Part shown: positions 1 through 19,497 of the stretch, piece after piece
Layout of the letters: every line of letters begins with the position of its first letter
How positions within the stretch are numbered: the first letter of the stretch is position 1
Assembly: GCA_030068145.1 (NCBI GenBank)
Contig: JAPJBO010000450.1
Location: 1-64,000, forward strand
Reading direction: 5' to 3'
Length of the DNA stretch: 64,000 nt
From: Diplonema papillatum
Taxonomy: Eukaryota; Euglenozoa; Diplonemea; Diplonemida; Diplonemidae
Notes under the pieces: generated by a model
The model's input: the letters and a program-made list of their open reading frames with translations, nothing else
Told to the model about the DNA's origin: nothing
Database searches by the model: none
Position numbers and translations under genes: made by a program

Positions 1-3000
1 GCGCGTTGTGAAGGCGCGTTCGGCGGCCGCTGCCGAAACACGTCTGGGCGTGCGATCCGTTGACGTCGGTCGCACCGTGCCCGCAAAGGCGGCACTCCCC
101 CGGCGCGGCCGCAATTGGAAGCCCCAACCGAAGCCGGACTGCCACCGCCAGCTCGGCCGGAGACAACCACATTGTGGTATCCGCCTCAGGGTTGCCGTAC
201 AACCACGCCGAAGCGTGCTTGCCGGAGCCGCTTTGGATCCGCGCCCGGATCCGGTCTTGAGCCCGGGTCAGGGCCTGACCCTGCAGTTGGCCGGAGTGGC
301 CGAGCTCCTCCGTCAGCGACTCGAGAAGGTTCTTCCTCTTCTCGGTGGCCAAGGCGGACGACCATGCCTTCTGTCCTCGCCCCTCGTACTCGGCTCGTGC
401 CTGCATGACGTCCTGGATCTTCTCCAGGACGGATTCATAGGTTGCAAGGCGCGGGTCGACGAGGGACGCTTGGACGGTGTCGTCCTGCTGCCACGTGAGG
501 TGTGGCAGCAGGGCCGGGGCCACGAGGGCGGGGAGATGCGGCCCCCCGTCCAGCGCCGCGGCGATGTGGGCAATCCCGCTCACGTCCGCACAGCTGTGGA
601 GGCCGAGGCCGCCCATCCTGACGGGTAGTGACGCCTGTGTCCACGACGCGTCATCGGTTTCGATCCCGGTGATCGTCGCGAGACAGGACTGGGTGACGCG
701 GTCGATGCCCGCGTAGTCGAAGACGGGCCCTGTCGCGCGCATGAGGTGCACCACTCCAACGAAGCCGGCACAGAACTTCGTCAGCGTGAGCGCCACGTGC
801 GCGTCAGGTAGGGACGCGATCACCCTCAGCTTCCTCTCGGCGCCCTGTGCCACCCGCTCAACGAACGCGCGGATCTTCTCCGGCGATCCGCACGGCACAC
901 CCAGGTGCTCGATCTCGTCGAGGGAGCACGTCTCGATGCCGTCTAGGCCCGCCGGTACCTCGGCACCCGGGGCAATCGCCAGTCTGCACTTGCCCCTATT
1001 GAGGCTCAGACCGACTGCTGCGGCTCGCCGCTCGAACTCGCACAGCCATCGCGCGATCGAGTCGAGTTCCCCGCCCGTTACCCCGTCGTCGAGGTAGAAC
1101 GTCAGGAGCTCGAGGCTGGCCCGGCTCAGCGCTGAGTGGTTGGGCGCGGCCTCCGGCTGCTCCTGAGGTGCCGGCTCCTGTGCTACTGGCCCGGCGCCCT
1201 CCGGATCCTCGGGGGCGCCTCGCGGTATCTGGGCCACCGGCGCCGGCGGAATCGGGCCCGGGAGCGCGAGGGCCGGCTCTCCGGGCTCCGCCGGGCCCCC
1301 GTGGGCTGGGTCCTCGGGTGGCGGTTGCGCTGGCCCCGGCTCGTGCGGTGGCGGTGGCCCCTGCTCAGGAGGGCCCTCTCCGCCTTCCACGGCTCCTGCG
1401 GGGTCCGCGGGCTCCTCCGGCCGCGGAGCCTGAGCGCCCGCCCCCGGGGCCTCTTCCGGCGCCGGCTGGACTGCCGGGCCGACCTGTGGCGCTGCCGCAG
1501 CCTCGGCCGGCGGCGGCGGCGGCGCGATGACGTCCTGCAGCGCCAGGCTGAAGAGGAGAGGCCCCAAGGGGTCCCCCTGTTGCACCCCACGCTCGGAAGT
1601 GAGCGTTTGGTCTCCAACTTGCAGTATGGAGTGCTTCCCGTATGCCGCCATGGTGTACGCCAAGACCTGGGGGGCATGCCTGCTGGCGCTTTGAATGATC
1701 GCCTCCCTCTGCAGGGAGTTGAATGCGTTCGCCAGGTCGATCTGGAGGATGCCCTTGCCCGCCCCGCCTTCCCTGCGGTACATGGCCGCCACCCTACGGA
1801 CGGCGAGAATTCCCGCGTCCGCTCCGGCCTTCACCCCGACACCGACCTGCCCGCTTCGCAGGAGCACGCTTTGCCCGAGCTCCTTTACCACCCGGTCGGA
1901 CGCGAGGACCTTTCCGGCCACCCTCCGCAGAATCTCGCCGCAGGCGATGGGTCGGATGCCGCCCCCTCTTTTCACCAGTGGGACCAGCTTGGCCCCGTAG
2001 AGGTATGGCCTGGCCGCCGCCGAAACCCTCCCGGACGAGAGGGCCCATACCGCGTCTGCCACAGCCTCCTTGAAGGAGCCGGAGCTGTCCCAGAGGTCCA
2101 GCAGGTGCTGCGCAGAGAGCCCGGAGGGGCCGGCCGCCGTGCCCTTCGGCATCTTCTTCAGCAGTCTCCGAACCGCACTCGGCGAGGGCCGTGCCACGTT
2201 CAGGCCCTGCATCGCCGGGTCGCCTTGCCACTCCTCGGCAGCCGGGTGGAGGGCCCTGAGCTGCGCCATGGTGGCCTCGTCTGGCGGGGCCGTCTGCGCT
2301 GCCGAAAGCGCCGACACCGCCCGCGAGTAACACCGGTCCCGCGCCCGCTTGATGACCTGGCGCACGGTGGGGGCGTCCAGGTCATCCACTGACCTGACCG
2401 CCGTCTGGAGCTCGACCCTGTGGTCGTTGTCCTCGACCGGGTAGGCACGCCGGCGCGCGCGACCTTGAGCCTTCCCAGCCGTGATGGCCAAGGCCTCCGA
2501 CCAGAGCGTCCCGAACAGGCCGTCCCTCCAGAGTCTGACCCGGCGGCGGAGGGCCTCTGTCACCGCTCTGCGTCCTCCCCGAGTGGTGGCCGCCAAGATG
2601 AGCGGGGCGAAGGCATATACCCGCAGCCACCCCGCGTCGTCAGATGCCCCCCGGAGCACAGTCTCAAACAGGGCGGCGACCTGCGGTTTCGCCGTTGTGG
2701 GGACCCTGTTCAGGGTGGGCACATTGGCCGCGGCTACCTGGGCAAAGGTGAACGGGAGCGCCGCCCCCTGAAACCATCTCCCCGGGGCCGCCTCCCCCCC
2801 TGGGGCCGCCTGCCCCCCCGGGGCCGGGGGGGGCGGGGGCCTCCGCACTGGCTCCAGCCCAGCGGCCACTCGACCTTGGTAGGCCCGGGAGCGGGGGCAC
2901 CAACTGCAATGCCTGCCCCTCCGCTCCCCGGGTCCCGCCGCATCCCTGCAGATGCAGACCGCCGCTCCTCCTTGCGGCCCGGCCGGCTGAGCCCTAACCG

Positions 3001-6000
3001 GTGGCGGAGGTACCGGTGGCACGACAGGAATTACTACGGGCGGGGCCGCGGGCGGCTCCCCTGGCGGCCCGGGATTGGGGTGGATGTCCCCGTCGCAACA
3101 CAGGTCGTCTCCTCCGCGCCCGGAGGAAACGACCTGTGCGGCGGCGGAGTCATCCATCCCTGTGGCCGCCCAGTGAGCCTGTCGGCCCCTCCTTCGTGGG
3201 CCCGGGTGCCGGGGGACGTCCCCGTCGTCGCACGGGTCGTCGCCGCCCCTTCCCAAGGAGACGTGAATCTCCGGGTCCGGGCTTGCTATCCCGGCCGCGT
3301 GCGCCACCCTCACGCTGTCCGGGAACAGGACGGGCGTAAGTGGCCAGCTGGACTGCGGGGGACCCGGGGGTTGGCTCTCCATGGCCGCTCCCCTCCCCTG
3401 GCCGGGCTGCGCCAACCTGTCCTTCACCCGCGCGGCGATGGCTCGCACTGAGGCGACCAGGCCCGCGCCCCTCCCCAGGCCCGTGTCGGGCTTCTGCCTC
3501 ACCGGGGCCGGCGTCCCGACGGGCGATCGTGACGCGGGGCGCTTGGCTCCAGTCGCCGGAGTCCCAAGCGTGGCCCCGCACACCCTCTCCAGAAGGCGTT
3601 GGCTCGCCGCGTCTACCGGGGGTCGCTGCTGCGGTTCCGGTGATCCGACCCCCGGAGCGGGGGTGCCGGATCCGCCGCTGACGTCTCGCTGCTCAGAGGC
3701 CGAGGCTTGCTCCGAACCCTGCGCCGGCTGGCTCGGCCCGGGCGCCGGCGAACCCGGCCGAAGGAAGCCCCCATCCATCGCCTCGGCCCCCTCCGACAGG
3801 AAGCTGGGCTCCGACGGCACGTACCCCCAGGTGAGCCCGGACGGGGGGGTCTCCCACCCTTCCTCGGGGCCTCCCGGCCGTCTGCGGCGCACGGCCGCCG
3901 GCGTACCGACCGGGGACCGCGATGCGGGGCGCTTGGCCCCCTGCCCCTGGTGGGCTTCAGAGCCCCCGGCCGGCGCCTCGGCCTGGCCCGGTTGCTGGGC
4001 TCCTTCCCGGCAGCCTCCTCCCGGGGGTTCTCGCTGATCGGACCCTCCCTCCGCTGCTGGCGCTTCGGCCGACGGCTGGCTCGGCGGCGCTGCGCCCGCC
4101 CCCGCGCCCCCGTCTCCGGGGTCGGGGCCTCCCTTGTCCCCCCCGTCGGCCCGCGGAGCACCCGCCCCCTCTTGAGCCAGTTCGTCGTCCGACTCGGAGC
4201 CCGAATCCGACCCGTCCTCGCCCGGTCCAGAGCCAGTCCCGGACTCGGAATCCGGAAAGGGGTTCGCCTCCGAGCTCCCTCGCAGGGCGCTCAGGTCCAC
4301 CCCGTGCCTGAACTTCCGGCTATGCCGCCTGTCCCGTGCCGAGCTGGCTTGGGCGGCGCCTGCGAGGGCGGCCGGGCCGGCCTCGCCGCCAGCCGCGACG
4401 TGGTCGGCCCGGACTCCCTCGCCTCCGGCGGCCGCGGGTTCGGCCTGGGCGGCCGCTGCTCGGTCGGCCTGGTCGACCTCGCCACTAGCGGCGACGGGGT
4501 CGGCCCGGACGGCCTCGCACCCGGCGGCGGCCGCGGCGGCAGGTTCAGCCCGATCGACCTCGCCCCCAGCGGCGGCGGGGTCAGCCTGGCTGGCCTCGCA
4601 CCTGGCGACTGCGGGGTCGGCCAGGTCGACCTCGCCACAAGCGGCGACGAGGTCGGCCTGGACGGCCTCGCACCCGGCGGCTGCGGGGTCGGCCAGGCCG
4701 ACCTCGCCACAAGCGGCGACGAGGTCGGCCTGGACGGCCTCGCCCCTGGCGTCTGCGGGGTCAGCCAGGTCGACCTCGCCACAAGCGGCGACGAGGTCGG
4801 CCTGAACGGCCTCGCACCCGGCGGCGGCGGGTTCTGCCTGGACGGCAACGGGGTCAGCCTGGGCCTGGTCGCCCTCCCTGCTTGCCGGCAACGACTGCGC
4901 CCTGGGACGCCCCGCCGGGACTAGCTCGACGTCCCGAGGAGTCGCCGGCGAGGACGCCGCCGACGACCTCGGGAAGTCCACCTCCTCGTCAAAGAGGCGG
5001 CGCCCCACCGGCAGATCGCCGGCCTGGGGGGCCTCGGATGCCTCACGCATCCCAGCGTCCCTTCCGGCCGGCTCCTTTGGCCCAGGGGCTACCGGCGGCG
5101 GGAGGAACGCAAACCCCTGGTGGGGCACCCTCGCCGCCCGCGGTGCGCTCGGCACCAGTGCCCTCTCGGCCTCCTCTTGTGGGGCGAGCCCCCGCAAGAT
5201 CTCCTGCATCTCGCCGAGAGATGCGTCCATCTCGGCGACGTGGGCTACGACGAGCTCGTCGTAGCCCCGACTCGCGGTCTCCCTGCGGTGCTGGGAGGCG
5301 TGCTGAGCGGCCTCGCCGGCGGAGGCGCTCAACCGCCCGCAAAGGCCACAGAGGGCCACCACCGGCGTGGCGGCCCAGCTGCGAAACCACTGGAGGTGCT
5401 CTTCCTCCAGCGCCTCCGCCTCCGCCTGCGCCCGGCGGACTCTCGCCCAAGCGTCCAGAACCGCGGGAAGCTGCGGTCCCTCCGGGAGCTCGTCGACGGC
5501 GTGTAGCGCCGTGGCCTGCACACCCTTGCTGGAGCGTGCAGGCCTCGGCCCGGTTGTCTGTGCTGTGTGTGTTTGTTTGGTTCGCAAAGGGGGGGGGTGG
5601 TACGAGCGGTTCGCAAACGGCGCTGTGGGTTTGTTGTTTGAAAAAAAGGGGCGTACCTCCCCCGCGCGCTGGTGCCGGTCCGGGCACCGGGTGTTCCGGC
5701 ATCTACCCTGCTTGAAGGCAGGGCAAATGGGGAGCAACCGGTGCTCGTACCGGCACTGGCTACGACGACAGCCTGCGCGCCGGAAGTTGAAGTTCCGACA
5801 GACTTCCTCCTTCCGGCCTGCGGGCTGCGCCGTGTTCACACGGGTGTCGGCGGCTGCGGCTGCGGCGACTGCGGCTGCGGCGGGAGCGCGTCTTCCCTGC
5901 CTCAGCGCCTCGGCGAACGTCGGGACGGCGGCATCGACGGCGGCATCGACAGCGGCGGCGGCGGAAGCGTCCTCTCCCCGCGCGACCGCCTCAGCGAACG

Positions 6001-6235
6001 TCCGGGGGGCGGCCCGGAGAGACGCGGCGAACGCAGCGGCGTCCGTCGGTGTCCGTGTCGCGGCGGCGGGGCACGCGAACCCCGGCCACCCGGCCGTCGA
6101 CAGGGCCGCTGCCCCTGCCGAGAAGGCAGCGGCCAGCTCCCGGCTGCCCGTCCCTGCTCCGAGGGCGGCAGCAGCCGTCCCGGCCCCGCCCGCCGGAGCG
6201 GGGGGCCCGCCACCCCCCGGGTCGGGGGCGGCCAT
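1..6235 (-). CDS. Non-LTR retrotransposon single ORF: CCCH zinc fingers + reverse transcriptase (3' end beyond window)
   Basis: Reading from an ATG at 6233-6235 the frame stays open to the window edge (about 2,078 codons, no stop met). Two CCCH-type zinc fingers lie near residues 146-188 (CRNFNFRRAGC..., CPAFKQGRC...). Then comes a long Ala/Pro/Glu/Asp-rich part with 24-residue repeats near 470-635. The reverse transcriptase follows: LLKKMPKGTAAGPSGLS (about 1355), RPIACGEILRRVAGK, IDLANAFNS (about 1497), GVQQGDPLGPLLFSLAL (about 1550) and the catalytic FYLDDG (about 1713). About 145 residues of Pro/Ala-rich sequence separate the last two motifs, where about 35-40 are usual. The visible end has C-x2-C-x10-H-x3-C (CRLCGHG...GSHAQTC) followed by RTRLHN, a pattern that precedes the restriction-like endonuclease in R2/NeSL-type elements. 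That endonuclease would lie off the window, so the clade is inferred. Copies of the enzyme make cDNA from the element's own RNA at a nicked target. The start is the first ATG after a poly(A) junction. Confidence 0.88.
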   Translation of the reverse strand, partial: MAAPDPGGGGPPAPAGGAGTAAAALGAGTGSRELAAAFSAGAAALSTAGWPGFACPAAATRTPTDAAAFAASLRAAPRTFAEAVARGEDASAAAAVDAAVDAAVPTFAEALRQGRRAPAAAAVAAAAAADTRVNTAQPAGRKEEVCRNFNFRRAGCRRSQCRYEHRLLPICPAFKQGRCRNTRCPDRHQRAGEVRPFFSNNKPTAPFANRSYHPPPLRTKQTHTAQTTGPRPARSSKGVQATALHAVDELPEGPQLPAVLDAWARVRRAQAEAEALEEEHLQWFRSWAATPVVALCGLCGRLSASAGEAAQHASQHRRETASRGYDELVVAHVAEMDASLGEMQEILRGLAPQEEAERALVPSAPRAARVPHQGFAFLPPPVAPGPKEPAGRDAGMREASEAPQAGDLPVGRRLFDEEVDFPRSSAASSPATPRDVELVPAGRPRAQSLPASREGDQAQADPVAVQAEPAAAGCEAVQADLVAACGEVDLADPADARGEAVQADLVAACGEVGLADPAAAGCEAVQADLVAACGEVDLADPAVARCEASQADPAAAGGEVDRAEPAAAAAAGCEAVRADPVAASGEVDQADRAAAAQAEPAAAGGEGVRADHVAAGGEAGPAALAGAAQASSARDRRHSRKFRHGVDLSALRGSSEANPFPDSESGTGSGPGEDGSDSGSESDDELAQEGAGAPRADGGDKGGPDPGDGGAGAGAAPPSQPSAEAPAAEGGSDQREPPGGGCREGAQQPGQAEAPAGGSEAHQGQGAKRPASRSPVGTPAAVRRRRPGGPEEGWETPPSGLTWGYVPSEPSFLSEGAEAMDGGFLRPGSPAPGPSQPAQGSEQASASEQRDVSGGSGTPAPGVGSPEPQQRPPVDAASQRLLERVCGATLGTPATGAKRPASRSPVGTPAPVRQKPDTGLGRGAGLVASVRAIAARVKDRLAQPGQGRGAAMESQPPGPPQSSWPLTPVLFPDSVRVAHAAGIASPDPEIHVSLGRGGDDPCDDGDVPRHPGPRRRGRQAHWAATGMDDSAAAQVVSSGRGGDDLCCDGDIHPNPGPPGEPPAAPPVVIPVVPPVPPPPVRAQPAGPQGGAAVCICRDAAGPGERRGRHCSWCPRSRAYQGRVAAGLEPVRRPPPPPAPGGQAAPGGEAAPGRWFQGAALPFTFAQVAAANVPTLNRVPTTAKPQVAALFETVLRGASDDAGWLRVYAFAPLILAATTRGGRRAVTEALRRRVRLWRDGLFGTLWSEALAITAGKAQGRARRRAYPVEDNDHRVELQTAVRSVDDLDAPTVRQVIKRARDRCYSRAVSALSAAQTAPPDEATMAQLRALHPAAEEWQGDPAMQGLNVARPSPSAVRRLLKKMPKGTAAGPSGLSAQHLLDLWDSSGSFKEAVADAVWALSSGRVSAAARPYLYGAKLVPLVKRGGGIRPIACGEILRRVAGKVLASDRVVKELGQSVLLRSGQVGVGVKAGADAGILAVRRVAAMYRREGGAGKGILQIDLANAFNSLQREAIIQSASRHAPQVLAYTMAAYGKHSILQVGDQTLTSERGVQQGDPLGPLLFSLALQDVIAPPPPPAEAAAAPQVGPAVQPAPEEAPGAGAQAPRPEEPADPAGAVEGGEGPPEQGPPPPHEPGPAQPPPEDPAHGGPAEPGEPALALPGPIPPAPVAQIPRGAPEDPEGAGPVAQEPAPQEQPEAAPNHSALSRASLELLTFYLDDGVTGGELDSIARWLCEFERRAAAVGLSLNRGKCRLAIAPGAEVPAGLDGIETCSLDEIEHLGVPCGSPEKIRAFVERVAQGAERKLRVIASLPDAHVALTLTKFCAGFVGVVHLMRATGPVFDYAGIDRVTQSCLATITGIETDDASWTQASLPVRMGGLGLHSCADVSGIAHIAAALDGGPHLPALVAPALLPHLTWQQDDTVQASLVDPRLATYESVLEKIQDVMQARAEYEGRGQKAWSSALATEKRKNLLESLTEELGHSGQLQGQALTRAQDRIRARIQSGSGKHASAWLYGNPEADTTMWLSPAELAVAVRLRLGLPIAAAPGECRLCGHGATDVNGSHAQTCFGSGRRTRLHNA
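4330..4850 (-). repeat. Coding minisatellite inside the retrotransposon ORF (72-base / 24-residue units)
   Basis: Six to seven imperfect units of 72 bases encode variants of AVQADLVAACGEVDLADPA plus five residues. They keep the reading frame of the reverse transcriptase and lack stops. The last three units are nearly identical, so part of the expansion is recent. The product is Ala/Asp/Glu-rich and probably a flexible linker between the zinc fingers and the reverse transcriptase. Confidence 0.8.
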
Positions 6236-6550
6236 GCGTGTGTTGGTGTGTGTGTGCTTTTTCTCAACGATTTTTTTTTTTTTTGGAGCACTTTTTTTCG
6301 GGTTTGCGGGTTTTTTTTTTTTTTTGGAGCACGGGACACTGTACAAGCCATGTTGGTACAGCGGGGCTGCCGGTATCCGGTTGCTTCCGGAGCGGGAGCC
6401 CAAAAAAATGCTTCTTCAGCACACAGTGAACGCCAGTCTCAAATGGTAAACATACTGTAAAACACGGCATACCTTGGCTGGAAAAGAGAAATATATAAAT
6501 AAATAGTTGGATTTTTTTTTTTTTCGAGACTGGAGGTCCTATGAACATAC

Positions 6551-6722
6551 GGGATACGAGAAGAACCCTCTTCCTCCGCGTCCACCCGCGGGGAAGATCT
6601 TACACCCGAAGAGAAGTTCCTTCACCAAGCGGCCATGTCATTTTGCGAATCGGCGCTTGGAGTGAAGGAAAGTCTCTTGGGAGCAAGTCTCCTGGGAATA
6701 AAAATTGCACCGCCATACTGTT
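6551..6722. repeat. Direct repeat, copy 1 (partner 7275-7424)
   Basis: About 150 bases are nearly identical to 7275-7424, starting GGGATACGAGAAGAACCC and ending ATTGCACCGCCATACTG. Copy 1 carries 24 extra bases (about 6649-6672) absent from copy 2. It lies inside the poly(A)-tailed cluster and is probably part of a retro-copied RNA. Confidence 0.85.
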
Positions 6723-7015
6723 GGATTCTTCGGACATGTATTAGCAAGGGGCAGGATCTTTTACGCCCGGGAAGGGTAGGTGCGCAGCTCGGACGCCAGA
6801 TACGAAGTAAGGGGCTTTCACCCACAGCAAAGGTACTGCTTGCCTGCCGCGTTTCGAAAAACACGTTTCCAGGGGACACCGCGAGGAGGTGGAAAGTCAG
6901 CTTTTGTCCCACCATTCAAATTGACCAACATCGAGAGACTCTGGGTGGATTCATCATCTAAAGGTCTAAACTTGTGTAAAGTGTAGATGCCGATGCCCGA
7001 ACCCAAACCCCAATT

Positions 7016-7130
7016 TGGGTTCGAGCGCTAGGTGTGGATTCGCTAGGTGTAGATTGCGCTTGGTGTAGATTCGCCCCTGTATGCTTGGGTTCGGGGCGCT
7101 GGGTGTAGATTGCGCTAAGTGTAGAACTGA
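7016..7130. repeat. Short imperfect repeat, GCTAGGTGTAGATT type
   Basis: Variants of GCTAGGTGTAGATTCG / GCTTGGTGTAGATTGCG recur about six times in 115 bases, interrupted by a GGGTTCGGGGC segment. There is no coding content. Confidence 0.6.
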
Positions 7131-7274
7131 TGTGAATTTGGAAGTTGCCGTTCGCCGAAGCTAGTCGTGGCCCGATAAATCCGATGTTTTTTTTTTTTTT
7201 TCAACTGGGAGCATCGTACGGGAAACAAATGGGGCTAGGGGTGTGTTGGGCTGGTTCCTGTTCAATTTTCTCGT

Positions 7275-7424
7275 GGGATACGAGAAGAACCCTCTTCCTC
7301 CGCGTCCACCCGCGGGGAAGATCTTACACCCAAAGAGAAGTTCCTTCACCAAGCGGCCATGTCATTTGGTCAAGTCTCTTGGGAGCAAGTCTCCTGGGAA
7401 TAAAAATTGCACCGCCATACTGTT
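7275..7424. repeat. Direct repeat, copy 2 (partner 6551-6722)
   Basis: Second copy of the repeat at 6551, lacking 24 internal bases. Same orientation, about 720 bases away, with the two copies in different poly(A)-bounded segments. Confidence 0.85.
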
Positions 7425-7439
7425 TCCAGACGTTTACCT

Positions 7440-7770
7440 GGTGCCTGGTCGGTGTTCTCCGTGTTTTTTTCGGTTCGTACACACACAAACAGCAAAAGGC
7501 ACAACCACACCACTGGCAGGCGCAGTTTTTGACCGCACCGGTTCACACTGAACCGGCGCCTGCCACACGGCACTGGGGAACCCCTTCTTTTTCTTTCTGG
7601 GGGTTCAGCTGGGAGCCTGGAAAGGCCGCCGCTTCGCCACAAGCAACCCTTTCTCGCACAGACACAGGAAATTCCACAACTTTGGCCCCGCAAGAAAAGC
7701 CAAGCACCAAAGCAACCTCGCCTTCGCAGCAAGAAAGACCCACTGGGGAGTCCAGCCTTCCGGAAATGTG
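7440..7770 (-). repeat. Spacer-like repeat with nested hairpin, copy A (partner 8345-8600)
   Basis: Lies directly after the 28S end on the minus strand, so it may be the native intergenic spacer. It shares order and many blocks with 8345-8600 (CACGGCACTGGGGA, GCCTGGAAAGGCCGC, CACAAGC). A nested structure is visible: outer stem 7515-7523 / 7556-7564 and inner stem 7539-7545 / 7549-7555 with loop CAC. Confidence 0.6.
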
Positions 7771-7790
7771 CCCTGAGTAACTCACGCATT

Positions 7791-7964
7791 CCTCTAGACT
7801 GGGTTCTGGCTTAGAGGCGTTCAGCCATAATCCATCCAGTGGTAGCATCACGGCACTGTCCGATCGAACAACCGTAGATACCAGGGACTAGAAACGGGAG
7901 TTCCTCTCGCACTACCCCGTGGAATGCGCTGGCCCGATGGGCTCTCTCTCCATCATTCGGGTAA

Positions 7965-8003
<39 letters not shown>

Positions 8004-8051
8004 GTTAGTGGGTGAACAATCCAACCCTTAGACAATTCTGCTTGTCTAGGT

Positions 8052-8083
<32 letters not shown>

Positions 8084-8118
8084 AACGTCGCTATGAACGC
8101 TTGGCTGCCACAAGCCAG
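7791..8118 (-). rRNA. 28S (LSU) rRNA 3'-terminal fragment
   Basis: The minus strand carries the conserved end of the large-subunit rRNA in order: CTGGCTTGTGGCAGCCAAGC, GTTCATAGCGACGTTGC, CGATGTCGGCTCTTCCTA, GGATTGTTCACCCACTAA, GTGAGCTGGGTTTAGACCG, the sarcin-ricin loop as GTGCGAGAGGAAC (A of the usual GTACGAGAGGAAC changed), GGTTGTTCGATCGGACAG, and GGATTATGGCTGAACGCC. The 5' edge is abrupt: normal 28S has GGGATAA before CTGGC, here an 18-base A run stands there. The fragment therefore begins at an insertion junction and is not a complete functional gene. Its 3' end merges into a spacer-like segment. Confidence 0.92.
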
Positions 8119-8344
8119 TTTTTTTTTTTTTTTTTTACGGGGCCTTCGAGGCAAACTGGGAAACACAAGCAAGACAATCAAGTTCCAAAGGGGAAGTTCA
8201 AATACTTCGTTTGTGGGCCGACACTCGGGTATTCTCCGGTGTCTTTTCGATTGGTGTGACTCAGTCCCTCCTGCTGCAAAATTTTGTGAAATGCAGGAGT
8301 GGACTTGTCACAGCCAACCGCACAGACAGCCTTGATTTTTTTTT

Positions 8345-8600
8345 AAACACCAGGCCGTACAGTTTGCCAGACAAGAAACCTGGTGCCTGACCTGGTGGGT
8401 TCTCCGGGTTCACTTCTTCACAACGAAAAACGGCACAACCACGAACACAGACAGGCGCGGTTTGAACCCGCACCAGTTGCACACTGCAACCGGCGCCTGC
8501 CCCACGGCACTGGGGACTCAGAAAAACGAAAGGAGAGTCGGCTAAGGGCCTGGAAAGGCCGCGGCTCAGCCACAAGCCGCCACCTGTCACTCAGACTGGG
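8345..8600 (-). repeat. Spacer-like repeat with nested hairpin, copy B, poly(A)-ended
   Basis: A diverged copy of 7440-7770 whose minus-strand end is an A run (8336-8344). The outer stem 8452-8458 / 8493-8499 and inner stem 8476-8481 / 8485-8490 (loop CAC) are kept although the inner stem sequence differs from copy A. A GGTTTGAACCC box resembles a pol III B box. Confidence 0.55.
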
Positions 8601-8788
8601 GCCAACTAATTCAAAAAACCGGGGGCACATTTTTCTTCGAGGGTCCCTCGCAAAGTCGTTGGGGGCTCTCAGGGTAGTGTCAGCACTGCCCACCCCCCGG
8701 CCCCCCCCCCCCCCTTTGCACTTCATCAGCCAAAAAAAACTCTTAGTCAAACCCGGGTGCTTCTGGGCCCAGGATCCCCCCAAAAACA

Positions 8789-8794
8789 ACTTCT
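8789..8794. repeat. Target site duplication ACTTCT (left) of fold-back element 1
   Basis: ACTTCT directly precedes the terminal repeat CATAGATGGCCG; the same six bases follow the right end at 10935-10940. Confidence 0.8.
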
Positions 8795-8810
8795 CATAGA
8801 TGGCCGGTTG

Positions 8811-8882
8811 ATAACGTTATATAACGTTATATAACGTTATAACGGTGATAACGTTATATAACGTTATATAACGTTATATAAC
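8811..8882. repeat. ATAACGTTAT palindrome array, left arm
   Basis: Seven or so head-to-tail copies of the self-complementary ATAACGTTAT, the subterminal part of fold-back element 1, mirrored by 10658-10922. Confidence 0.85.
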
Positions 8883-8934
8883 GGTCGAAAACGCAAAATA
8901 ACGGAAAAAATAACGCAAATAACGGTTTTTAGAA

Positions 8935-9330
8935 TTTTTCCGATTTTGGCCATGTTTCCAGATTTTTGTCATTTTTTCCTCATTTTGGTCCATTTCGGCC
9001 ATTTTTTCCGATTTTGGCCATTTTTGCCAGATTTTGGTCAATCTTAGCCAATTTTTCCAGACTTTTGCCGATTTTTTCAGGTTTTGGCCATTTTGCCGAT
9101 TTTTTCCAGATTTCGGCAATCTTTGCCGATTTTTCCAGATTTCGGCCATTTTTGCCGATTTTTCAAGATTTTGGACAATTTTGAGATTTTGGCCACTCTG
9201 GCCGATTTATCCAGATCAGTCAATTTCGGCCATTTTTTCCGATTTTTCCAGATTTCCCGATTTTCCAGATTTTGGTCAATTTCGGCCATTTTTGCCAATT
9301 TTTCCAGACTTTTGCCGATTTTTGGATCCC
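8935..9330. repeat. AT-rich ~30-base tandem array, left arm
   Basis: Repeated TTTTGGCCATTTTTGCCGAT / TTTTTCCAGA motifs. The array is open in several frames and gives Phe- or Asn/Lys-rich translations, which are by-products. It is the inverted counterpart of 10320-10630. Confidence 0.85.
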
Positions 9331-9758
9331 GGTCACAAAAACTGTTCGGAAACAAACCCTGGTCCGAAAAGAATTCGTAGTAACCGGTCCTCAGGGGTCC
9401 GTATAGCCCCTCCCCAGAGCTTTTTCTCTTTTACTTATTTTCTTGCGGACTTCCACCCAAGCGCGACAAACGCGATCCTTCCGGATTCACATGACTCTTT
9501 CACTGTGCGATGTTGTTCTTGGGATGTGGATGTCTGCAGTTTTGGGTTTCCGGCGCGTGTCCCTCAGTCGGTGGCCCGTAACGGTCGTTTGCAGTGTCCT
9601 TCGTGAGGCAGCAGATGTCACCAGCATGATCCGGCCACTGGAGTCCAACTTGTCCAAGCTTGTCCACTCGGCAGACCGTTGCGTACTATGCCAGTCAGAC
9701 AAGGTCCCAGTACCAAATATGGGTGCATGATGAGCACGAGACATGCAAAGTCGAGCAG

Positions 9759-10109
9759 TCACAGCTGGCGCTTCCCGTAGAACCCAGCCAGCCCGGGGTC
9801 GGTTTTCTTGATCCGGTCGATGAATCGTTGTTCCGGGCTCTTACTTGGTGGTTTCGTGACAGGGAGAACGCTGGGGCCAGTCAATGCCAGGTCGCGGGAC
9901 AAGGCCTCGACGCGCAGCGTTTCCGCCACCTTCTTCCTTCCGCGTCGCGCCTTTGCAACCGAGGCGCTGCTGCTGCTGCTGTTGCTATCCGTACTTTCGG
10001 CGCGAGGCCGTTTGCGCTGTGTACCTGGGGTCTTCGGCTGAGCTTTCGGCTGAGCTTTAGGTTGAGCCTTCGGCTTCGGCTGGACCTTCGGGGAGCTTTT
10101 CGCAGGCAT
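9759..10109 (-). CDS. Small basic Lys/Pro/Ser-rich protein carried by fold-back element 1
   Basis: A 116-residue ORF starts at the ATG at 10107-10109. I chose this start because the longer frame upstream only runs into the Phe-rich repeat array. The N-terminus is a repeat of PKAQ/PKPK units, followed by a basic stretch (QRKRPRAES), a Ser tract, another basic patch (KARRGRKK) likely to be a nuclear localisation signal, and a tail ending IKKTDPGLAGFYGKRQL. The composition resembles histone H1 tails, but there is no globular H1 domain and no transposase motif. Its place at the centre of the element between mirrored arrays suggests a DNA-binding accessory protein or a captured host gene. Function unknown. 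Confidence 0.5.
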   Translation of the reverse strand: MPAKSSPKVQPKPKAQPKAQPKAQPKTPGTQRKRPRAESTDSNSSSSSASVAKARRGRKKVAETLRVEALSRDLALTGPSVLPVTKPPSKSPEQRFIDRIKKTDPGLAGFYGKRQL

Positions 10110-10319
10110 AGTCGATATTCCCTTTGGAAAGACTAGTGTGGCTGAAATCGAAGCGGGTGGGGCGGTACACGTGTTTTTGTGTTTCCGACGATCCCGAATG
10201 GGCGTACAGATTGGTGTCTTTCGACCTTTTTTTTTTTCCGCGCACGGACTGCCTGTTCGAGCTTGTGCGGGTTTAAGAAACTCAGACAAGAATAGCTCTG
10301 GTGAGGGGCAGGGCATAAA

Positions 10320-10630
10320 TGACCAAAACCCTGGAAAAATCGGCAAAAACGGCCAAAATGGGCAAAGTCTGGAAAACATGGCAAAACTGGCCAAAAATGA
10401 CCAAAACCTGGAAAAATCGGCAAAAATAGCCAAATTTTTGAAAAACATGGCAAAAATGGCCAATCCTGGCCAAATCGGTAAAAACGGCCAAAATGGGCCA
10501 AAATCTGGAAAACACGGCAAAACTGGTCAACATTGACCAAAATCTGGAAAAATTGGCAAAAATAACCAAAATTGGCCAAAATCTGGAAAATGTGGCAAAA
10601 ATGGCCAAAAATGACCAAAATCTGGAGGAC
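10320..10630. repeat. AT-rich ~30-base tandem array, right arm
   Basis: Units such as CTGGAAAAATCGGCAAAAA and GGCCAAAAATGACCAAAA are the reverse complement of the left-arm array, so the two arms of the element could pair with each other. Confidence 0.85.
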
Positions 10631-10657
10631 AGTGTGACCTCCCATGGACTGGTAAAA

Positions 10658-10922
10658 AACCGTTATATAACGTTATATAACGTTATATAACGTTATTATA
10701 ACGTTATATAACGTTATTATAACGTTATATAACGTTATTATACCGTTATTATAACGTTATATAACGTTATATAACGTTATAACGGTCAAATAACGTTATT
10801 TTTCGACCAAAAATGGCAAATAACGGTTTTATAACGGTCAATAACGGTTTTTCTGGATTTAGGGGGGGGGTAACAAATAACTCCGGGAATAACGTTATAT
10901 AACGTTATATAACGTTATATAA
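10658..10922. repeat. ATAACGTTAT palindrome array, right arm
   Basis: A longer and more broken series of ATAACGTTAT units than on the left, interrupted by a short unique stretch with a GGGGGGGG run (10862-10870). Confidence 0.85.
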
Positions 10923-10934
10923 CGGCCATCTATG

Positions 10935-10940
10935 ACTTCT
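10935..10940. repeat. Target site duplication ACTTCT (right) of fold-back element 1
   Basis: Identical to 8789-8794 and directly adjacent to the right terminal repeat. Confidence 0.8.
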
Positions 10941-12960
10941 GAGTGTTATTTCTCACCAGATGGGCCCCGTGCCATGCATAGGAGCCCACAAATCCACCCC
11001 CCTTGCGGCATGATACTATACTATAGGCCCGGAAACGTAGTAGCGGATTTTTGTGGTTCGTCGGCATTTCATTGCCGCAGGGTACATTACACGCCGGGAT
11101 CGCCGAGAAAATGTACGAATGATGATCCCAACGTGAAGAAGTTGTCAATTCCTGGTGAAAACACTAAGGGCGCGCCAACCGCGCCCAACGCGCCATACAG
11201 GGTTTTCTGGCGCGGCCTGGTGCGGCTGGCGCAGGAGCCACACTGCCCTGCACGCGTTACTACGGGGGGAAGGGAGTGGACCGTTCTAATACCCGACATC
11301 TCCACGGCGTCAGATGTTGAGGAGTGTCGTTCATCGGGTTGCCGCCGGAAGTTACTACGAGCCTGTGCAGTACTGCCCGCCCGATGAGGAGGTAGCAAGT
11401 GTGACGAGAAATCTGGCACTTGGACCGTCTGTTTTGGAAGGGATGCGCGGGAAGATGAAGAAGGTCCTCCAAATCGCTACTCATCCAAACGTGCGGGACG
11501 AGCTCATCGGACAAAGGTCTGCTGCAAAGAAGGAGAGTTGCCTTCGGTTCCACCGTTGCCGAATCTGATTGTCAGTGCGTCTAGGTCGAGAAAGACTGTT
11601 GTGGAACAAGTCCAAGCAGGAGGAAGCTGACCTGGTGGCTGGCAGAAAGAGGAAACGAGAAGGCCTGCTCGCATCGATTCGCTCCGATTCGACTGCACGA
11701 AGGAGTGGTCGAAAGTCCTGTTGCTGCAGCAGTGTCGTGCCAGGGGACAAAATCAACAATGGGGCGCCTTCAGAAGAAGATACGATCCCGCCCCCGAAGC
11801 TGCGAAGAAAGGGGAAGACGAAGAAGTAGCTGCCGATCAAGTGCCTCAGCTCCTTGACAAACCCGAGTTGTATTTCATTAATAGACTGACATCGCCCCAC
11901 TCTGTTTCACATTTCACGTCAGTTTTGTGTTCAGTCATGCATTTCTTGTTTTGCTACTGAACGTCCATTTAATTCTCCTTCGGTCGGAGCCGTAGCGCCG
12001 CTCCGGTGTGCGAATTAAACTCATGTTGAATGCGCTGTTTTACGAAACGCACTTTGGCTACGTTGCTTGGCCGGACTGCTGACGCTACGAACGGTCTCTC
12101 CTCCCGTTTACGCTGGCCACACGCGCGGAAGCGCAGCTGGTGAAACAACGTCCTCCTTCAACCAGCTTGCGAGCTCCTTTTCCACCACACCTTGCTCAAG
12201 GACACGCCTCCGCGAACCGCCGCGAATCCCAGCGTCGTTTAGACGCTGGGATTCGCGGCGGTTTGGACGCTGTGGGAGCTTTTCCTGAAGCTGCTGGAAG
12301 ATACACTGGGAGTGCCACCGCTTGCTGCTTCGTCGGGTACCTTTTTAAACCTTCCTTTGTTCCATTATGCAGCAAGAATTGCGGAATACATCACACTCGC
12401 CACGGTCATCTTTTCTGGCAACTCGGTGTCCATAGGGCTGAAGCAAGCCGGCTGATCGCGCTACGAACTTGGCCGACATCCAGCTTGTCGGATGATCCAA
12501 CGCCCAACTTCACAAAGATACACGAAAAGCGGGTACATGACGGTCTGGAAGGTTGCCCCGAGGAGGCGTGAACTTCCCAAGCCACTGCAACTCTGAAGGA
12601 GGTTGTCGAGAACTTCGTCAAGATGGTGACGAAGACTGGTGGATAGGATGAGTGCAAGACAGATGGTAAGTTCAGCGAAATGTGCGCCTGTTTTGCGAGG
12701 AGCGCTTTTTTCAGAGCCTTTTGCGCGGCAGACGCTACCACGAGGGGAAAAAAACGAGAGTATATGTTGCCCCTCCTCCCTTCCAAACTCAGAAACCCCG
12801 AAACCTGGAGAAAACATTGCCGAACAAAAATGAAAAAAAATCTGGGTGGAGGTCAAATTTTGCTAAGTACACCCAGCGTTTAAAATCACGTACACCCCTG
12901 CTCTGCGCTGCCAGTAACTGCCAGTAACAGCCAGTAACCGCCAGGTAGACTGCCGCTAAA
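10941..12960. other. Region without a recognisable gene
   Basis: Only short frames are present. A plus-strand path of broken frames at 11140-11880 (for example PYRVFWRGLVRLAQEPH, then EEVAADQVPQLLDKPELYF) reads like the remains of a protein gene with frameshifts, but I do not recognise it. A long perfect hairpin at 12215-12263 and a GCCAGTAACT tandem repeat at 12908-12943 are the only other structures. Confidence 0.4.
12215..12263. other. Perfect 22-base-pair hairpin, 5-base loop
   Basis: The arm at 12215-12236 (AACCGCCGCGAATCCCAGCG plus TC) is exactly complementary to 12242-12263, with loop GTTTA. No U run follows on either strand, so it does not look like a terminator. It could be a small-RNA precursor or a palindromic repair junction. 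Confidence 0.75.
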
Positions 12961-13090: not shown

Positions 13091-14797
13091 TTATCGCAAA
13101 GACTCGTTGAGCAACTCGTCAAAGGCACCGATGCAGCGCAGGCCTCGTAGCGACTCACCATTCATCTTGCGCCGCAACACTTCGTGCGCAATGCTGACCG
13201 TGTCATTGATGAGCTCTGGAATGAACCACTTGCTGACGTCGTCATCTTGAGACAGAGCCGGGCCAGACTGCAGCTCGAGTAGGTACGTCTGGTACTGCGT
13301 GTCGATAATGAAGTCGCATGCGAGGAGGGCAAACCGGCCGTTTCCGGCATCGGCGCGCAGTTCGGACTTCCGCGCCAGGAGGATGCTGCGGACCGCAGTT
13401 TTCATTGAGGATACGATGTTTTGGTAAGCGGCTGCGGGCACATGCTTGGAGAGGTCTGAAGACAGCATTTTGAGGCTGTTTTGGAGGAAGGGGTAGTTGC
13501 GGTGCGTGCGCTGCTGCGCGATGTTAGAGATGTGGACGTGTGGGTTGTTGAAGTCGGCGTCCCGGTACTGCTCGATGTTCATGCGAATTGTCCCGAGCCT
13601 GAAATAGGCCACCAAAGGATCCACGGACGCGATCACGAAGTAGCACCTCAGATCGAACTTCCGACCGACGGTGTCGCCGGGCAGCTTCAACAACAAAGGA
13701 TCCCTTATGTAGCGCTGGATGATGAACGTGTGCGCTCGATCCCGCATGCACGCGAGCAGCTCGGCCTGCCCCCTGCGCGCCCACCACTCCGGGAAGTCCT
13801 CCACTATCTGCATCCCGAATCCCGACGCCAGATTCGCGCGTTTGAGGATATACTTGATCCCCTCTGCACCCTTGACCATCCTAGGCGCCACGCGCGTCGC
13901 AAAATGCAAGAAGTCCCCCGCGTTCGACAGCACATGCGTGTCCGGCACGCGCACCAGCGATCCCAGTTTGTCCGCCAGAGAGCCGAGAGCTCCTTTGTCA
14001 ACCAATAGGATTTCAAGGTGGGACGACAGCCTGTTCAGTAGCTGCCTTCTCGGGTCGAACTTCTCTGTCCTGAACGCCTCGAGCCCGTCTCTTTCCCACA
14101 CAATAGAAGCCTCCACCGGGTCGCCCACTACCTGCCAAACGCTGTTGTCCAACGCCAAATGAAACCCATTCCCCTCCCCAAACACCGTTCCAGGGACCTC
14201 GGCGTATCCCTCCCATACTCCCCGCCTCCAACCTATTCTCGGCAAGTCTGGGCAGAGCTTCGCATGCCGTCGCTTCCATGCGTTGCGGAACAAGACGGTG
14301 TGATCAGGTCCGTTTGTTGTATCTCGCCCTTCCAGTCCCCCGAGCCGCAATAGCAACGCCTTCGGGCAGTGCTGCGACAAATCGTTTCCCAACTCGACTT
14401 TCTCGGCTACCAAGCGGTACACATCATCCTCTTCGGTTCTGCCGTCAACCTCTGTTGACAGACGTCGAGGGAGAGCTGCTTTGGGTGTGCCACTGAGGAT
14501 GGTCTTCGACGGAGCTGAACTGGCCTTTCGGCGAGCGAGGACCAGACGCTCTGAGGACTCCTGCACGGCTTCGATCTCACGGTTGTGTCGGGTTTGCAGG
14601 TCGGAATGCAGAGTGACTAACTCGGTCAATGCGCTCCGCTGGGCGTCCATCTCAGCTTGCAGGTTCTCTATGGAGGCTTTCTTCTCCTCAATCTTCCGCC
14701 GTTGCTCGGCGACCTCGCTCCGCAGGCGGTCCTTTTCCTGCCGGTGCCTCTCCACTTCTCGTTCTATCGCGGTCACATCGGGCCCTGGAACCGACAT
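13091..14797 (-). CDS. Tubulin-tyrosine-ligase-like (TTL) domain protein with N-terminal coiled coil
   Basis: 568 residues. The start is the ATG at 14795-14797 in the context AAACCAACAATG; the frame continues upstream but only into a TIR element. Residues 8-95 are a heptad-rich Glu/Arg/Lys coiled coil. The ATP-grasp/TTL fold covers about 210-560: KYILKRANLASGFGM (nucleotide-binding Lys region), FIIQRYIRDPLLL, GRKFDLRCYFVI, FRLGTIRMN and, near the end, CDFIIDTQYQTYLLELQSGP. In most TTL enzymes that last motif is D...LLEVN.SP, with Asn binding Mg2+; here Gln stands in the Asn position, so activity may be altered. The family ligates Tyr, Glu or Gly to tubulin tails in cilia and the cytoskeleton. 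No partner gene is adjacent. Confidence 0.82.
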   Translation of the reverse strand: MSVPGPDVTAIEREVERHRQEKDRLRSEVAEQRRKIEEKKASIENLQAEMDAQRSALTELVTLHSDLQTRHNREIEAVQESSERLVLARRKASSAPSKTILSGTPKAALPRRLSTEVDGRTEEDDVYRLVAEKVELGNDLSQHCPKALLLRLGGLEGRDTTNGPDHTVLFRNAWKRRHAKLCPDLPRIGWRRGVWEGYAEVPGTVFGEGNGFHLALDNSVWQVVGDPVEASIVWERDGLEAFRTEKFDPRRQLLNRLSSHLEILLVDKGALGSLADKLGSLVRVPDTHVLSNAGDFLHFATRVAPRMVKGAEGIKYILKRANLASGFGMQIVEDFPEWWARRGQAELLACMRDRAHTFIIQRYIRDPLLLKLPGDTVGRKFDLRCYFVIASVDPLVAYFRLGTIRMNIEQYRDADFNNPHVHISNIAQQRTHRNYPFLQNSLKMLSSDLSKHVPAAAYQNIVSSMKTAVRSILLARKSELRADAGNGRFALLACDFIIDTQYQTYLLELQSGPALSQDDDVSKWFIPELINDTVSIAHEVLRRKMNGESLRGLRCIGAFDELLNESLR

Positions 14798-14850
14798 TGT
14801 TGGTTTCCTCAACGATTTATCGGGGGTTCCTAGGGATTTAGCGAGTCCTA

Positions 14851-15476
14851 CTGGGGGGGGGTCAAATACAATAGGTATAATATTGTATTTGCTGGGGGAG
14901 GCTAAAGAAAACCGGGTTTTCAAAAGTCTGGGTGCTGAAAGTCTGGTGTACAGGCACTTGGGGGTCAACAATGGAGGAAATTTGGCAAAAACTTTGCGGG
15001 ACGGAAAGAGCTATCCCTGGCATGTATCGGCACCTTTTCTACACTCGATATAGCCTAAAATCTGGCCCCCAGATGGCACTTCAGACTTTGGAAAAACCAC
15101 TCCGCCAGGAATCGAACCAGCACCCTCAGCACCACATGTGGGTGTGGGAACCGCTGGACCACGTGCTAAAAAAAAGCGGGGCATTTCATTTTGGGTTCGG
15201 GTGGTTCTCAGAAATTGTTGAACCCGAATCCGAGGAAAATGCCATCGACAGCGAAATCAAGCAGTAATATTGGACTCCCGGCTTCAGGTGTGTTCCACAT
15301 TGAACTTCTCTCGAAAAAGAAGCTGCTCTCGAGTGGGGAAGCCCCTGCAAACCCCGACCGAGGACAAATAATATTGTATTCCAAAACTATGCTCACCGAA
15401 ACCCCCTTTTCAGCGTACCTATTGTATTTGCCAATAATATTGTATTTGACTACCTACAGTATTTGACCCCCCCCAG
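14851..15476. mobile_element. TA-flanked TIR element (MITE, 626 bases) with tRNA-like core
   Basis: The left end CTGGGGGGGGGTCAAATAC and the right end GTATTTGACCCCCCCCAG are inverted repeats, each flanked by TA (14849-14850 and 15477-15478), as in Tc1/mariner-type elements. Subterminal CAAATACAATA / AATATTGTATTTG motifs are mirrored too. There is no transposase, so it is non-autonomous. It ends 53 bases before the TTL-like start codon and so lies in that gene's promoter or 5' leader. Confidence 0.8.
15104..15172 (-). tRNA. tRNA-like (degenerate) sequence inside the MITE
   Basis: The minus strand has an A-box-like TGGTCCAGCGG, a B box GGTTCGATTCC and a TTTTT pol III stop just after. A D-arm (GTGG/CCAC) and a short anticodon arm with loop CACATGT can be drawn. 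Position 33 is not U and the acceptor ends do not pair, so this is a tRNA relic or pol III promoter rather than a working tRNA. Confidence 0.4.
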
Positions 15477-17487: not shown

Positions 17488-19497
17488 TCATCGTCTTGCC
17501 ATGGAACCCCGCAGTGAGGAAGAAGTAGCTTGTCGCGGTACGATGGGATGTGCCAACTCCTCGTCTTCACCCGGCAGCTGCGCGTGCCGCAGTAGCGGGT
17601 GCTGCTTGCGGTGGGATGCTTTTAGAGCGCTCTCGAGCTTCTTGTACCCCCGGGCAGGCACTTCGACTGGGCCTATCGAATCAGACGACGTCGAGGACCT
17701 TTTCTGCTCCGCTCCGCCAAGCTGCACTTTACGCGTCGCGGGAGGCGGTTCAAGGGGAGGTGGCGGCTTGCCAGGCTTAGGCGGTTTAAACGAGGTGCTT
17801 CCCGGCGACACGGGCACGGTTGAGGCGCTGGTCTTCGTCGACATGCGAAGGCCCGGCGACCGGAGCGACGCACTGAGGGTTGGGAGAAGCGACATGTTGA
17901 GGGAGCCGGAGAATGAAGGCAAGAGAGCCATCGAGGCCTCGTCCTCTTCCTCGAACAGCTTTCTCGCGTGGTTTTTTAAAGGCCGCAGGCGGTGGTAGTT
18001 CGTGTCGCATTCGTCGCATAGTAATCCACATCGGTTGCACTTCACCTTGGCAGGGCGAAGCTCGCACTCCGTGCAGTTTGCAAACAGGTCTTCTCTATGT
18101 AGGGTAACAGGTGCATCCTCCTCCCAGGGCGGCACCACAGGAGGCAACCCGATGGCTAACTCAACGGACGCATCTTGCTGGCACAACAGCAGTTCCGAGC
18201 GCACGATCCGCGTATTTTCGGCTAGCAGCGACGTTTTCGAGTCACGGTGGAACATCCGCCTCCACTTGCCGCTCTCTTTGTCCTGCTGGAGCATCATCAG
18301 GAGGATGTTCTGGTCCATGAATTCGCCAAGGGACGCGAGGATGGTGAACGTGGGGAGCATCATCGGCAGGACCACGAAGAACACAGCCGCCGAGGGTACG
18401 AAGCATGCCATGATCAGAGCGAAGCCTTTCCGGCGGTCGTTGTTCGCAGCGCCGTACATCCACAGCCGGTACACAAAGTTGACCACGGTCGTGGCGAGGT
18501 AAAACACTTGGTACAACAACATGCACTGGATCATCTGCACGCTAAAGGCGGGTGATCCCTGCCAGAAGTAGGCGGACTGCGGCTTCGTCGGGCACATGGC
18601 GCCCGATTGCCGCATTTCCTGTACATGAATTGCGAAGTCGTTGAACTCGTGCTTCATCTTGTAGGCTAGAATCACCAAGACGAGCAGTGGTCCCAACCCA
18701 ACTAAGGCCACCCACAGACCGATGGTAGCGAGTGGGTTCTCGGAGATGGTGATGGTGATCTTGTCGGTGATGGCCGCCAGGAGGCAGAGCACGCCGAGGA
18801 AAAACCACGATTTGATGTGCAAGTTGAGGAACTGGAGCATGAAAATGCGCTGCATCTTCTTCATGTACCGGCAGAAGGACACGTGGACGAACCGCTCGGG
18901 AAGGTTCTGCCGGAAATAGCACAAGCACGACAGCATCCGAGGGCCGTCGCTGACCGAGCGGACGTAGTTCATCAAGAACGCGCCCCTTTCCTCATCAGAG
19001 ATGGACGGGTCCGATTCAATTTCGAGCACTTTATTCTCAAACCTGTCCCAGTTCTTCCAAGCAGGGCCGACTGTGTTGAACAGGGAGGTCACAAGCGTGA
19101 TGAACATGATCGCCATGACAAAGATGACGAAGTGTACGTAGTGGAATAGCGGCGTGTCGATCAACGCGGCGCCGCCGAGGTTCTCGAAAACGACCAAAAC
19201 AGCGGAAATTCCACCCAGGATCATCACTTCTTCGGTGATATGGTGCACGACCCTCGTCCCACTTCTCGTGTGCACCTTGTGGTGCAGAGTGTCCACTGTG
19301 TACTCCAGGACCAGGGTGATCCCGAAGACGGCGAGATACATGATTAGCACGTCCCACGGGGCTTCATCCACTTGCTTGCCGAGTGCGAAGATACTCACGC
19401 CCCCCGCGGCTTCGCATTCCGGCAGCAACGCGACGCCCGCCAGCAGCAGCAGCCACCCGCCTTGGACCCCCCCTGCCGCGCCAGACGCTGCCCGCAT
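17488..19497 (-). CDS. MLO-like multi-pass membrane protein with C-terminal B-box zinc finger
   Basis: 669 residues from the ATG at 19495-19497; the frame's earlier apparent start is GTG. A hydrophobic N-terminus (GGWLLLLAGVALL, cleaved near ECEA) is followed by about seven membrane segments (about 50-410). MLO-type landmarks are visible: LEYTVDTLHHKV...EEVMILGGISAVL, then FHYVHFVIFVMAIMF, later FWQGSPAFSVQMIQCMLLYQ, and MLPTFTILASLGEFMDQNI. MLO proteins of plants are seven-pass, calcium/calmodulin-linked membrane proteins. After the last helix, a B-box-like finger CTECELRPAKVKCNRCG-LLCDECD-H-KNH lies near 485-525, followed by a long Ser/Pro-rich cytosolic tail. The MLO/B-box combination is unusual to me. 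The MLO assignment rests on pattern recognition; a general multi-pass protein is the alternative. Confidence 0.68.
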   Translation of the reverse strand: MRAASGAAGGVQGGWLLLLAGVALLPECEAAGGVSIFALGKQVDEAPWDVLIMYLAVFGITLVLEYTVDTLHHKVHTRSGTRVVHHITEEVMILGGISAVLVVFENLGGAALIDTPLFHYVHFVIFVMAIMFITLVTSLFNTVGPAWKNWDRFENKVLEIESDPSISDEERGAFLMNYVRSVSDGPRMLSCLCYFRQNLPERFVHVSFCRYMKKMQRIFMLQFLNLHIKSWFFLGVLCLLAAITDKITITISENPLATIGLWVALVGLGPLLVLVILAYKMKHEFNDFAIHVQEMRQSGAMCPTKPQSAYFWQGSPAFSVQMIQCMLLYQVFYLATTVVNFVYRLWMYGAANNDRRKGFALIMACFVPSAAVFFVVLPMMLPTFTILASLGEFMDQNILLMMLQQDKESGKWRRMFHRDSKTSLLAENTRIVRSELLLCQQDASVELAIGLPPVVPPWEEDAPVTLHREDLFANCTECELRPAKVKCNRCGLLCDECDTNYHRLRPLKNHARKLFEEEDEASMALLPSFSGSLNMSLLPTLSASLRSPGLRMSTKTSASTVPVSPGSTSFKPPKPGKPPPPLEPPPATRKVQLGGAEQKRSSTSSDSIGPVEVPARGYKKLESALKASHRKQHPLLRHAQLPGEDEELAHPIVPRQATSSSLRGSMARR

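Follow-up and report, generated by a model that had tools for sequence, protein, structure and literature searches.

Transposons of the hAT superfamily usually carry target-site duplications (TSDs) of 8 bp (PMC3942097), and a hAT6 group is defined by TSDs of 6 bp, after Kapitonov and Jurka 2007 (cited in PMC12730594). Maize Ac, as described in PMC3260210, encodes an 807-residue transposase and bears subterminal AAACGG repeats that are bound by Ac; its internal deletions are called Ds-del. The ends of two further hAT elements are described in PMC10368747: in Hermes, BED fingers bind cooperatively to a quasi-palindrome behind the terminal inverted repeat (TIR), and a one-base shift impairs cleavage, and in Tol2 a perfect palindrome follows the TIR. 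According to PMC8097297, CGG-binding proteins derived from hATs usually favour CGG or CGC, AT-rich motifs are bound by some of them, and for four hAT proteins motif matches were present in their own subterminal regions. Outside the hAT superfamily, the long arms of Galileo are described as holding several transposase-binding sites (PMC3688188). Here we describe an element from Diplonema papillatum with foldback-like arms, which is one copy of a large family and which very probably arose by internal deletion of a longer, hAT6-like transposon.

A complete transposon with mirrored arms

The window, the whole stretch of 64,000 nucleotides analysed here, comes from contig C450 of a 271-Mb assembly in 2910 contigs. 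The element spans exactly 8789-10940, both copies of ACTTCT included (Table 1). It begins with ACTTCT and CATAGATGGCCG, continues through a palindrome array, an inner array and an interior with a minus-strand open reading frame (ORF), and closes with the mirrored inner and palindrome arrays, CGGCCATCTATG and the second ACTTCT. The original prediction of 12-base TIRs, a 6-base target duplication and two nested, mirrored arrays is borne out: the TIRs are exact, both ACTTCT copies are in place, the element has 20 copies of the palindrome ATAACGTTAT, 6 on the left and 14 on the right, whereas the window outside it has none, and an AT-rich inner array is present on both sides. When the left arm is compared with the reverse complement of the right arm, the best gapped local alignment covers 451 x 458 bases and has 345 identities in 433 aligned positions (80%); its score is 188, while none of 100 dinucleotide shuffles scored above 30. 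The arms are thus long, inverted and internally repetitive, as in foldback elements, at 80% identity over ~450 bases; the pairing over some 850 bases that had been suggested was not found.

Table 1. Features of the element and of its surroundings in the window.
Feature	Position	Strand	Remark
Reverse transcriptase frame	2-6415	-	
Left 6-bp TSD copy ACTTCT	8789..8794	.	single copy in paralogous empty sites L058, L059, L060, L061
Left TIR CATAGATGGCCG, 12 bases	8795..8806	+	
Left outer array: 6 ATAACGTTAT palindromes in 10-bp phase (8811-8840, 8848-8877), then TAACGG motifs	8811..8930	+	
Left inner array: TTTT tracts, 9.9-bp period	8931..9330	+	
Interior from the 3' side of the parent (up to parent base 934)	9331..9775	.	
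116-residue ORF and stop: transposase residues 1-111 and junction-made GKRQL	9759..10109	-	
Internal-deletion junction, 4-bp overlap of both parent segments	9776..9779	.	~3.1 kb missing (L032-element bases 935-4049)
5' untranslated/promoter side of the transposase gene, from the parent	10110..10317	.	putative role
Right inner array: AAAA tracts, 9.7-bp period, mirrors left inner array	10318..10630	-	
Right outer array: 14 ATAACGTTAT palindromes with TAACGG motifs	10660..10922	-	
Right TIR, reverse complement of CATAGATGGCCG	10923..10934	-	
Right ACTTCT copy	10935..10940	.	
Tubulin-tyrosine ligase family frame	13094-15010	-	
Mlo family frame	17491-19638	-	
Animal haem peroxidase family frame	38581-40314	-	

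A recently multiplied family

The feature in the window is a real, recently multiplied transposon and one copy of a large family. CATAGATGGCCG has 617 sites in the assembly (303 forward, 314 reverse), against 9 (4 + 5) for a control with the pattern reversed. Pairs of TIRs were scored at 47 places with distinct flanks, drawn from the first ~100 of the 617 TIR places and from loci found through the ORF, all with exact 12-base TIRs; loci lacking an exact, ordered TIR partner (L006, L007, L008, L033, L034, L037, L055, L056) were left out of this set, as was the C57 pair, which is split over L013/L014. An exact 6-bp TSD was found in 36 of the 47 pairs (38 with one mismatch allowed), and when left and right flanks were taken from different copies 1 of 2162 combinations agreed exactly and 30 of 2162 with at most one mismatch. 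The 11 pairs without an exact TSD include some in which it is shifted by one or two bases. Element lengths range from 99 to 9140 bases.

The state of the site before insertion is also represented in the genome. A query made of the two flanks joined by one ACTTCT gave at least 40 matches, 40 of 141 candidates being scored, and each of them spans the join. Three empty loci align without gaps across the site, with 152/154 (L058), 151/154 (L060) and 151/155 (L061) identical bases, and a fourth, L059, in reverse orientation, has 147/149. The predicted empty site with a single ACTTCT therefore exists, and the element has inserted into one copy of a short interspersed repeat. This repeat is ~155 bases long (window 8702-8794 and 10941-11001), and its at least 40 matches come from the same scored share of the candidates.

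A parent element with a hAT transposase

The original prediction had looked to the small protein for further copies, and a genome search with its 116 residues gave at least 150 matches (150 of 240 candidates scored), among them 42 ungapped matches with identity at every one of the 116 residues. Four of the 13 matches that align only as far as residue 114 (C203, C277, C493, C2040) sit in frames of 832 codons. Counted from the first Met, the frame encodes 793 residues, and it is nucleotide-identical at four loci (L031-L034), so that uninterrupted copies of the gene number at least four. Both ends were found for the elements at L031 (7176 bp) and L032 (5203 bp), with TIRs, 6-bp TSDs and arrays like those of the window copy. 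The mirrored, ‘onion’-like arms thus belong to the parent element, which has them too.

The 793-residue protein of L031 matches the Pfam family Dimer_Tnp_hAT (PF05699) at an E-value of 7.4e-10 and 38.9 bits, against a cut-off of 21.4; this is the sole Pfam domain above cut-off in the parent ORF, and PF05699 scores 43.5 bits in six loci. Neither a P-type transposase nor a THAP domain, by which the P superfamily is recognized, was found: the parent ORF passes for the hAT dimerisation domain only. Compared with the Hermes transposase, whose structure has been solved, the parent protein alone gives a weak match (E 0.083), and a profile that combines it with five further hAT proteins from this genome reaches 1e-16. 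The Pfam model for the BED finger has no match in the parent protein; by eye, a candidate zinc finger of the form C-x2-C...H-x3-H can be placed at about residues 146-171 of 793, and candidate catalytic Asp residues in HDGST (278-282) and SDCGAAN (342-348). A C-x2-H motif (C406, H409 of 832) is invariant in an alignment of six hAT proteins from this genome.

An 8-bp match of the flanks, as in the usual hAT form, occurs in 1 of the 47 pairs, and an exact 6-bp match in 36. These counts point to a hAT6-like family, in which 6-bp TSDs go together with a hAT transposase. Judged by its TSDs and protein sequence, the family is a member of the hAT superfamily of this 6-bp type rather than a classic 8-bp hAT.

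Origin of the window copy by internal deletion

The window copy is collinear with its parent at both ends and lacks a single block in between, as Ds-del elements do. Its bases 1-985 correspond to bases 1-934 of the L032 element (85%, with gaps in the arrays), and its bases 982-2140 to bases 4050-5203 (94%). The region encoding the hAT dimerisation domain falls within the deletion and is absent from the window copy. Of the 47 elements, 26 map with the same junction, and 27 contain the 24-base sequence spanning it without a change; this sequence is absent from the two parents. Other internal-deletion junctions in the same parent are found at L016, L035, L036 and L040, and some short elements (for example L024, L025 and L043) keep the ends around a middle that has no match to L032.

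Copies that share the window junction are nearly identical, differing by 0.27% on average with gaps left out. This value is for 18 copies, namely those of 2.0-2.3 kb among 21 named, from which L017, L021 and L039 were dropped for their length; copies of a class with a 336-nt ORF were left out. The common junction and the close similarity of the copies argue that one deletion copy was amplified. With a high degree of confidence, the window element is a non-autonomous, hAT6-like cut-and-paste transposon, derived by one internal deletion from a longer element of which copies with an uninterrupted transposase gene survive. It is probably unable to move by itself. The deletion fused the first 111 transposase codons with sequence from the opposite side of the element, a step that can be read directly from the junction. 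Since the TIRs and both subterminal array zones were kept, the copy may be mobilised in trans by the full-length transposase, by analogy with the mobilisation of Ds by Ac.

The 116-residue ORF

The ORF runs on the minus strand from an ATG at 10109 down to 9762. Its product matches no Pfam family. The deletion cuts the transposase frame after 111 residues, and the junction adds GKRQL. A candidate independent gene for a small protein was rejected, as the ORF sequence continues in the open frame of 832 codons at four loci. The original description, a fold-back transposon with its own small-protein gene, therefore stands for the transposon, its TIRs, its TSD and its arrays, and falls for the self-contained foldback element with a gene of its own, because the ORF is the 5' end of a transposase gene. 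Nothing supports the proposal that the protein binds or packs the arms, since the ORF stops short of the putative DNA-binding zinc finger; it also lacks the putative catalytic region and the dimerisation region.

A conserved ORF had been named as one sign of a family; selection on the ORF was not detected. Among the 18 copies, 1 segregating site falls in the 348-base ORF, 0 in 431 bases downstream and 6 in 209 bases upstream. Between the window copy and the parent, the common coding part has 5 synonymous and 3 non-synonymous nucleotide differences. Neither comparison gives a signal of selection, and the slight surplus of synonymous changes may go back to a period in which the sequence belonged to a working transposase. 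The ORF is most likely a passenger remnant.

A different account would have the truncated ORF kept by selection as a regulator of transposition, a repressor or decoy, through which the 2.1-kb class succeeded. The intactness of the ORF is what speaks for it: none of the 150 matches scored, out of 240 candidates, has an internal stop, and 136 of these 150 reach residue 116, the last of the junction-made tail (13 stop at 114 and one at 105), which can be set beside the 42 identical copies and the synonymous excess just described. The 150 that were scored, however, favour intact candidates, and the downstream non-coding bases of the 18 copies are no more variable than the ORF, so the copies are simply young. 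A protein devoid of the putative finger, of the putative catalytic region and of the dimerisation region also fits such a role poorly, and we consider a selected regulator improbable.

Far less credible is a strict foldback element, that is, an independent class outside the known superfamilies, in which the repetitive inverted arms and a small protein of their own drive movement. The mirrored, repetitive arms and a 116-residue protein without a Pfam family would suit it, but the same TIRs and arms flank a hAT transposase at other loci (it was recognized in L031, and the ORF is identical in L032-L034), and the ORF is the truncated start of that transposase. Nor can the transposase copies easily be taken for chance insertions between arms, which the collinear match of the window element with L032 argues against.

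IS3EU, Dada and Polinton elements also make 6-bp duplications. That one of these superfamilies made the copies, with the hAT protein hitch-hiking, would account for a TSD shorter than the usual 8 bp of hAT elements (PMC3942097), but it is extremely improbable. Families of hAT elements with 6-bp TSDs have been described (PMC12730594), and four loci here have the hAT ORF without interruption, one of them collinear with the deletion copies. The L032 element also contains 18 other ORFs of 90 residues or more; the scan covered the nine longest of these (at least 131 residues), and none of the nine matches a Pfam family at E 0.01. The preferred reading thus remains a deletion derivative of a hAT6-like transposon with a passenger fragment of its transposase gene.

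Architecture and possible function of the ends

The palindromes of the family are tandem, in a 10-bp phase and present at both ends, and number 0 to 24 per element, most often 16 to 24. Their position relative to the end is nearly fixed. In the 47 elements the first one starts at position 17 (17-26) in 45 left ends and 41 right ends, the next at position 27 in 41 left and 41 right ends, and a third at position 37 in 38 left and 37 right ends. With one palindrome per 10 bp, they all lie on one face of the helix.

The inner arrays have a similar rhythm. In the window, their T/A tracts recur with a period of 9.9 bp on the left (power 21.8) and 9.7 bp on the right (power 37.2), and both exceed the maxima of 200 mononucleotide shuffles (11.8 left, 11.9 right). 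Elsewhere, 305 windows of 400 bases gave a power of at most 6.9 for periods of 9.3-10.5. Eight elements, chosen by hand for having both arrays and including the window copy and the parent L032, all show a period of 9.4-9.9 bp on both sides with a power of 19.1-36.9, the shuffle control being that of the window arrays only.

The outer palindromes are most likely paired binding sites for the putative BED-type finger of the transposase, as the Hermes, Tol2 and Ac ends suggest by analogy, and the TAACGG motifs could by the same reasoning be transposase binding sites as well. Intrinsic bending of DNA is classically produced by phased A tracts. The phased A/T tracts of the inner arrays most likely act as bent DNA or as a further recognition sequence, and would help to bring the two ends together. 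The element at L011 has TIRs and a 6-bp TSD and no complete palindrome, which indicates that the arrays may not be strictly needed. A bolder idea, offered tentatively and rather unlikely as a whole, is a two-layer recognition of the ends that would be new to hAT elements: phased palindromes would collect many BED fingers, several hundred bases of A/T tracts would bend the arms together, and the deletion copies, with ~20 palindromes each, would act as a sponge for transposase that limits the activity of the family.

Unusual copies and other elements

Some members of the family are irregular. At L023 (C61:15447-15770), bases 101-227 hold a mini-copy of 99 bp in which two left ends stand head to head, with a further left end behind it. 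The flanks of the mini-copy, GCTTAT and ATAAGC, are mutual reverse complements; it looks like a hairpin or template-switch product of an aborted transposition. L011 (C5:688051-695537) holds at 101-7388 an element of 7288 bp with a decayed, partly inverted relative of the transposase inside. Two further elements hold retroelement-like genes: one at L012 (C56) contains a reverse-transcriptase RNase H domain and a tyrosine recombinase and appears DIRS-like, and one at L014 (C57; the L013/L014 element) contains an endonuclease and a reverse transcriptase, with a sub-threshold OTU match.

L026 (C2:197293-206310) has another hAT transposase frame (Dimer_Tnp_hAT, DUF659) at 6661-8733, inside an element with the TIRs of the family and a 6-bp TSD. 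It is probably a nested insertion; pairwise BLASTP of its protein with the parent protein gave nothing significant. With 150 of 851 candidates scored, the host assembly as a whole has at least 150 Dimer_Tnp_hAT matches at E ≤0.001, which include many copies of frames of 904 and 942 codons, and it holds several hAT families.

Comparison with known systems

The origin of the window copy is ordinary, and so is the element as a gene discovery, the small basic protein being a transposase remnant. What is unusual is the combination of foldback-like arms in a hAT element, palindromes in 10-bp phase at fixed positions and helically phased A/T tracts. This combination was not found in the literature on hAT subterminal repeats, foldback hATs, palindromic ends, truncated transposases and A-tract curvature that our search covered, most subscription journals lying outside it. 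The part that repeated subterminal sites play in the recognition of hAT ends can be tested directly in this family, which offers uninterrupted copies of the transposase gene, ends by the hundred and deletion derivatives that are nearly identical.

The family resembles the hAT6 group in its hAT transposase and its 6-bp TSDs, a placement based on TSD and protein. Arms built of palindromes and phased tracts are, to our knowledge, not known as a hAT6 trait. With maize Ac/Ds and its Ds-del derivatives it shares a transposase of ~800 residues, short TIRs, internal-deletion derivatives that keep both ends, and repeated CGG-containing subterminal motifs, which are AAACGG in Ac, as described in PMC3260210, and TAACGG here. 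Unlike Ac/Ds, it has a TSD of 6 rather than 8 bp, palindromic ATAACGTTAT arrays and long, mirrored inner arrays, and one deletion derivative dominates the sample (26/47). Palindromic subterminal sites right behind the TIR are also described at the ends of Hermes and Tol2 (PMC10368747), but here the palindromes are tandem, in 10-bp phase and present at both ends.

In overall architecture, the nearest counterparts are two Drosophila elements, Galileo, a foldback-like member of the P superfamily (PMC3688188), and Tetris, a foldback element of Drosophila virilis (PMC4079207), both described as having long inverted arms that hold tandem repeats and enclose either a transposase gene or a non-autonomous core. 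The repeat units differ from those of both, and the transposase of Galileo belongs to another superfamily, whereas the foldback-like architecture is found here in a hAT. Internally repetitive arms of this kind, known with P-type transposases such as that of Galileo, thus occur in a hAT lineage too.
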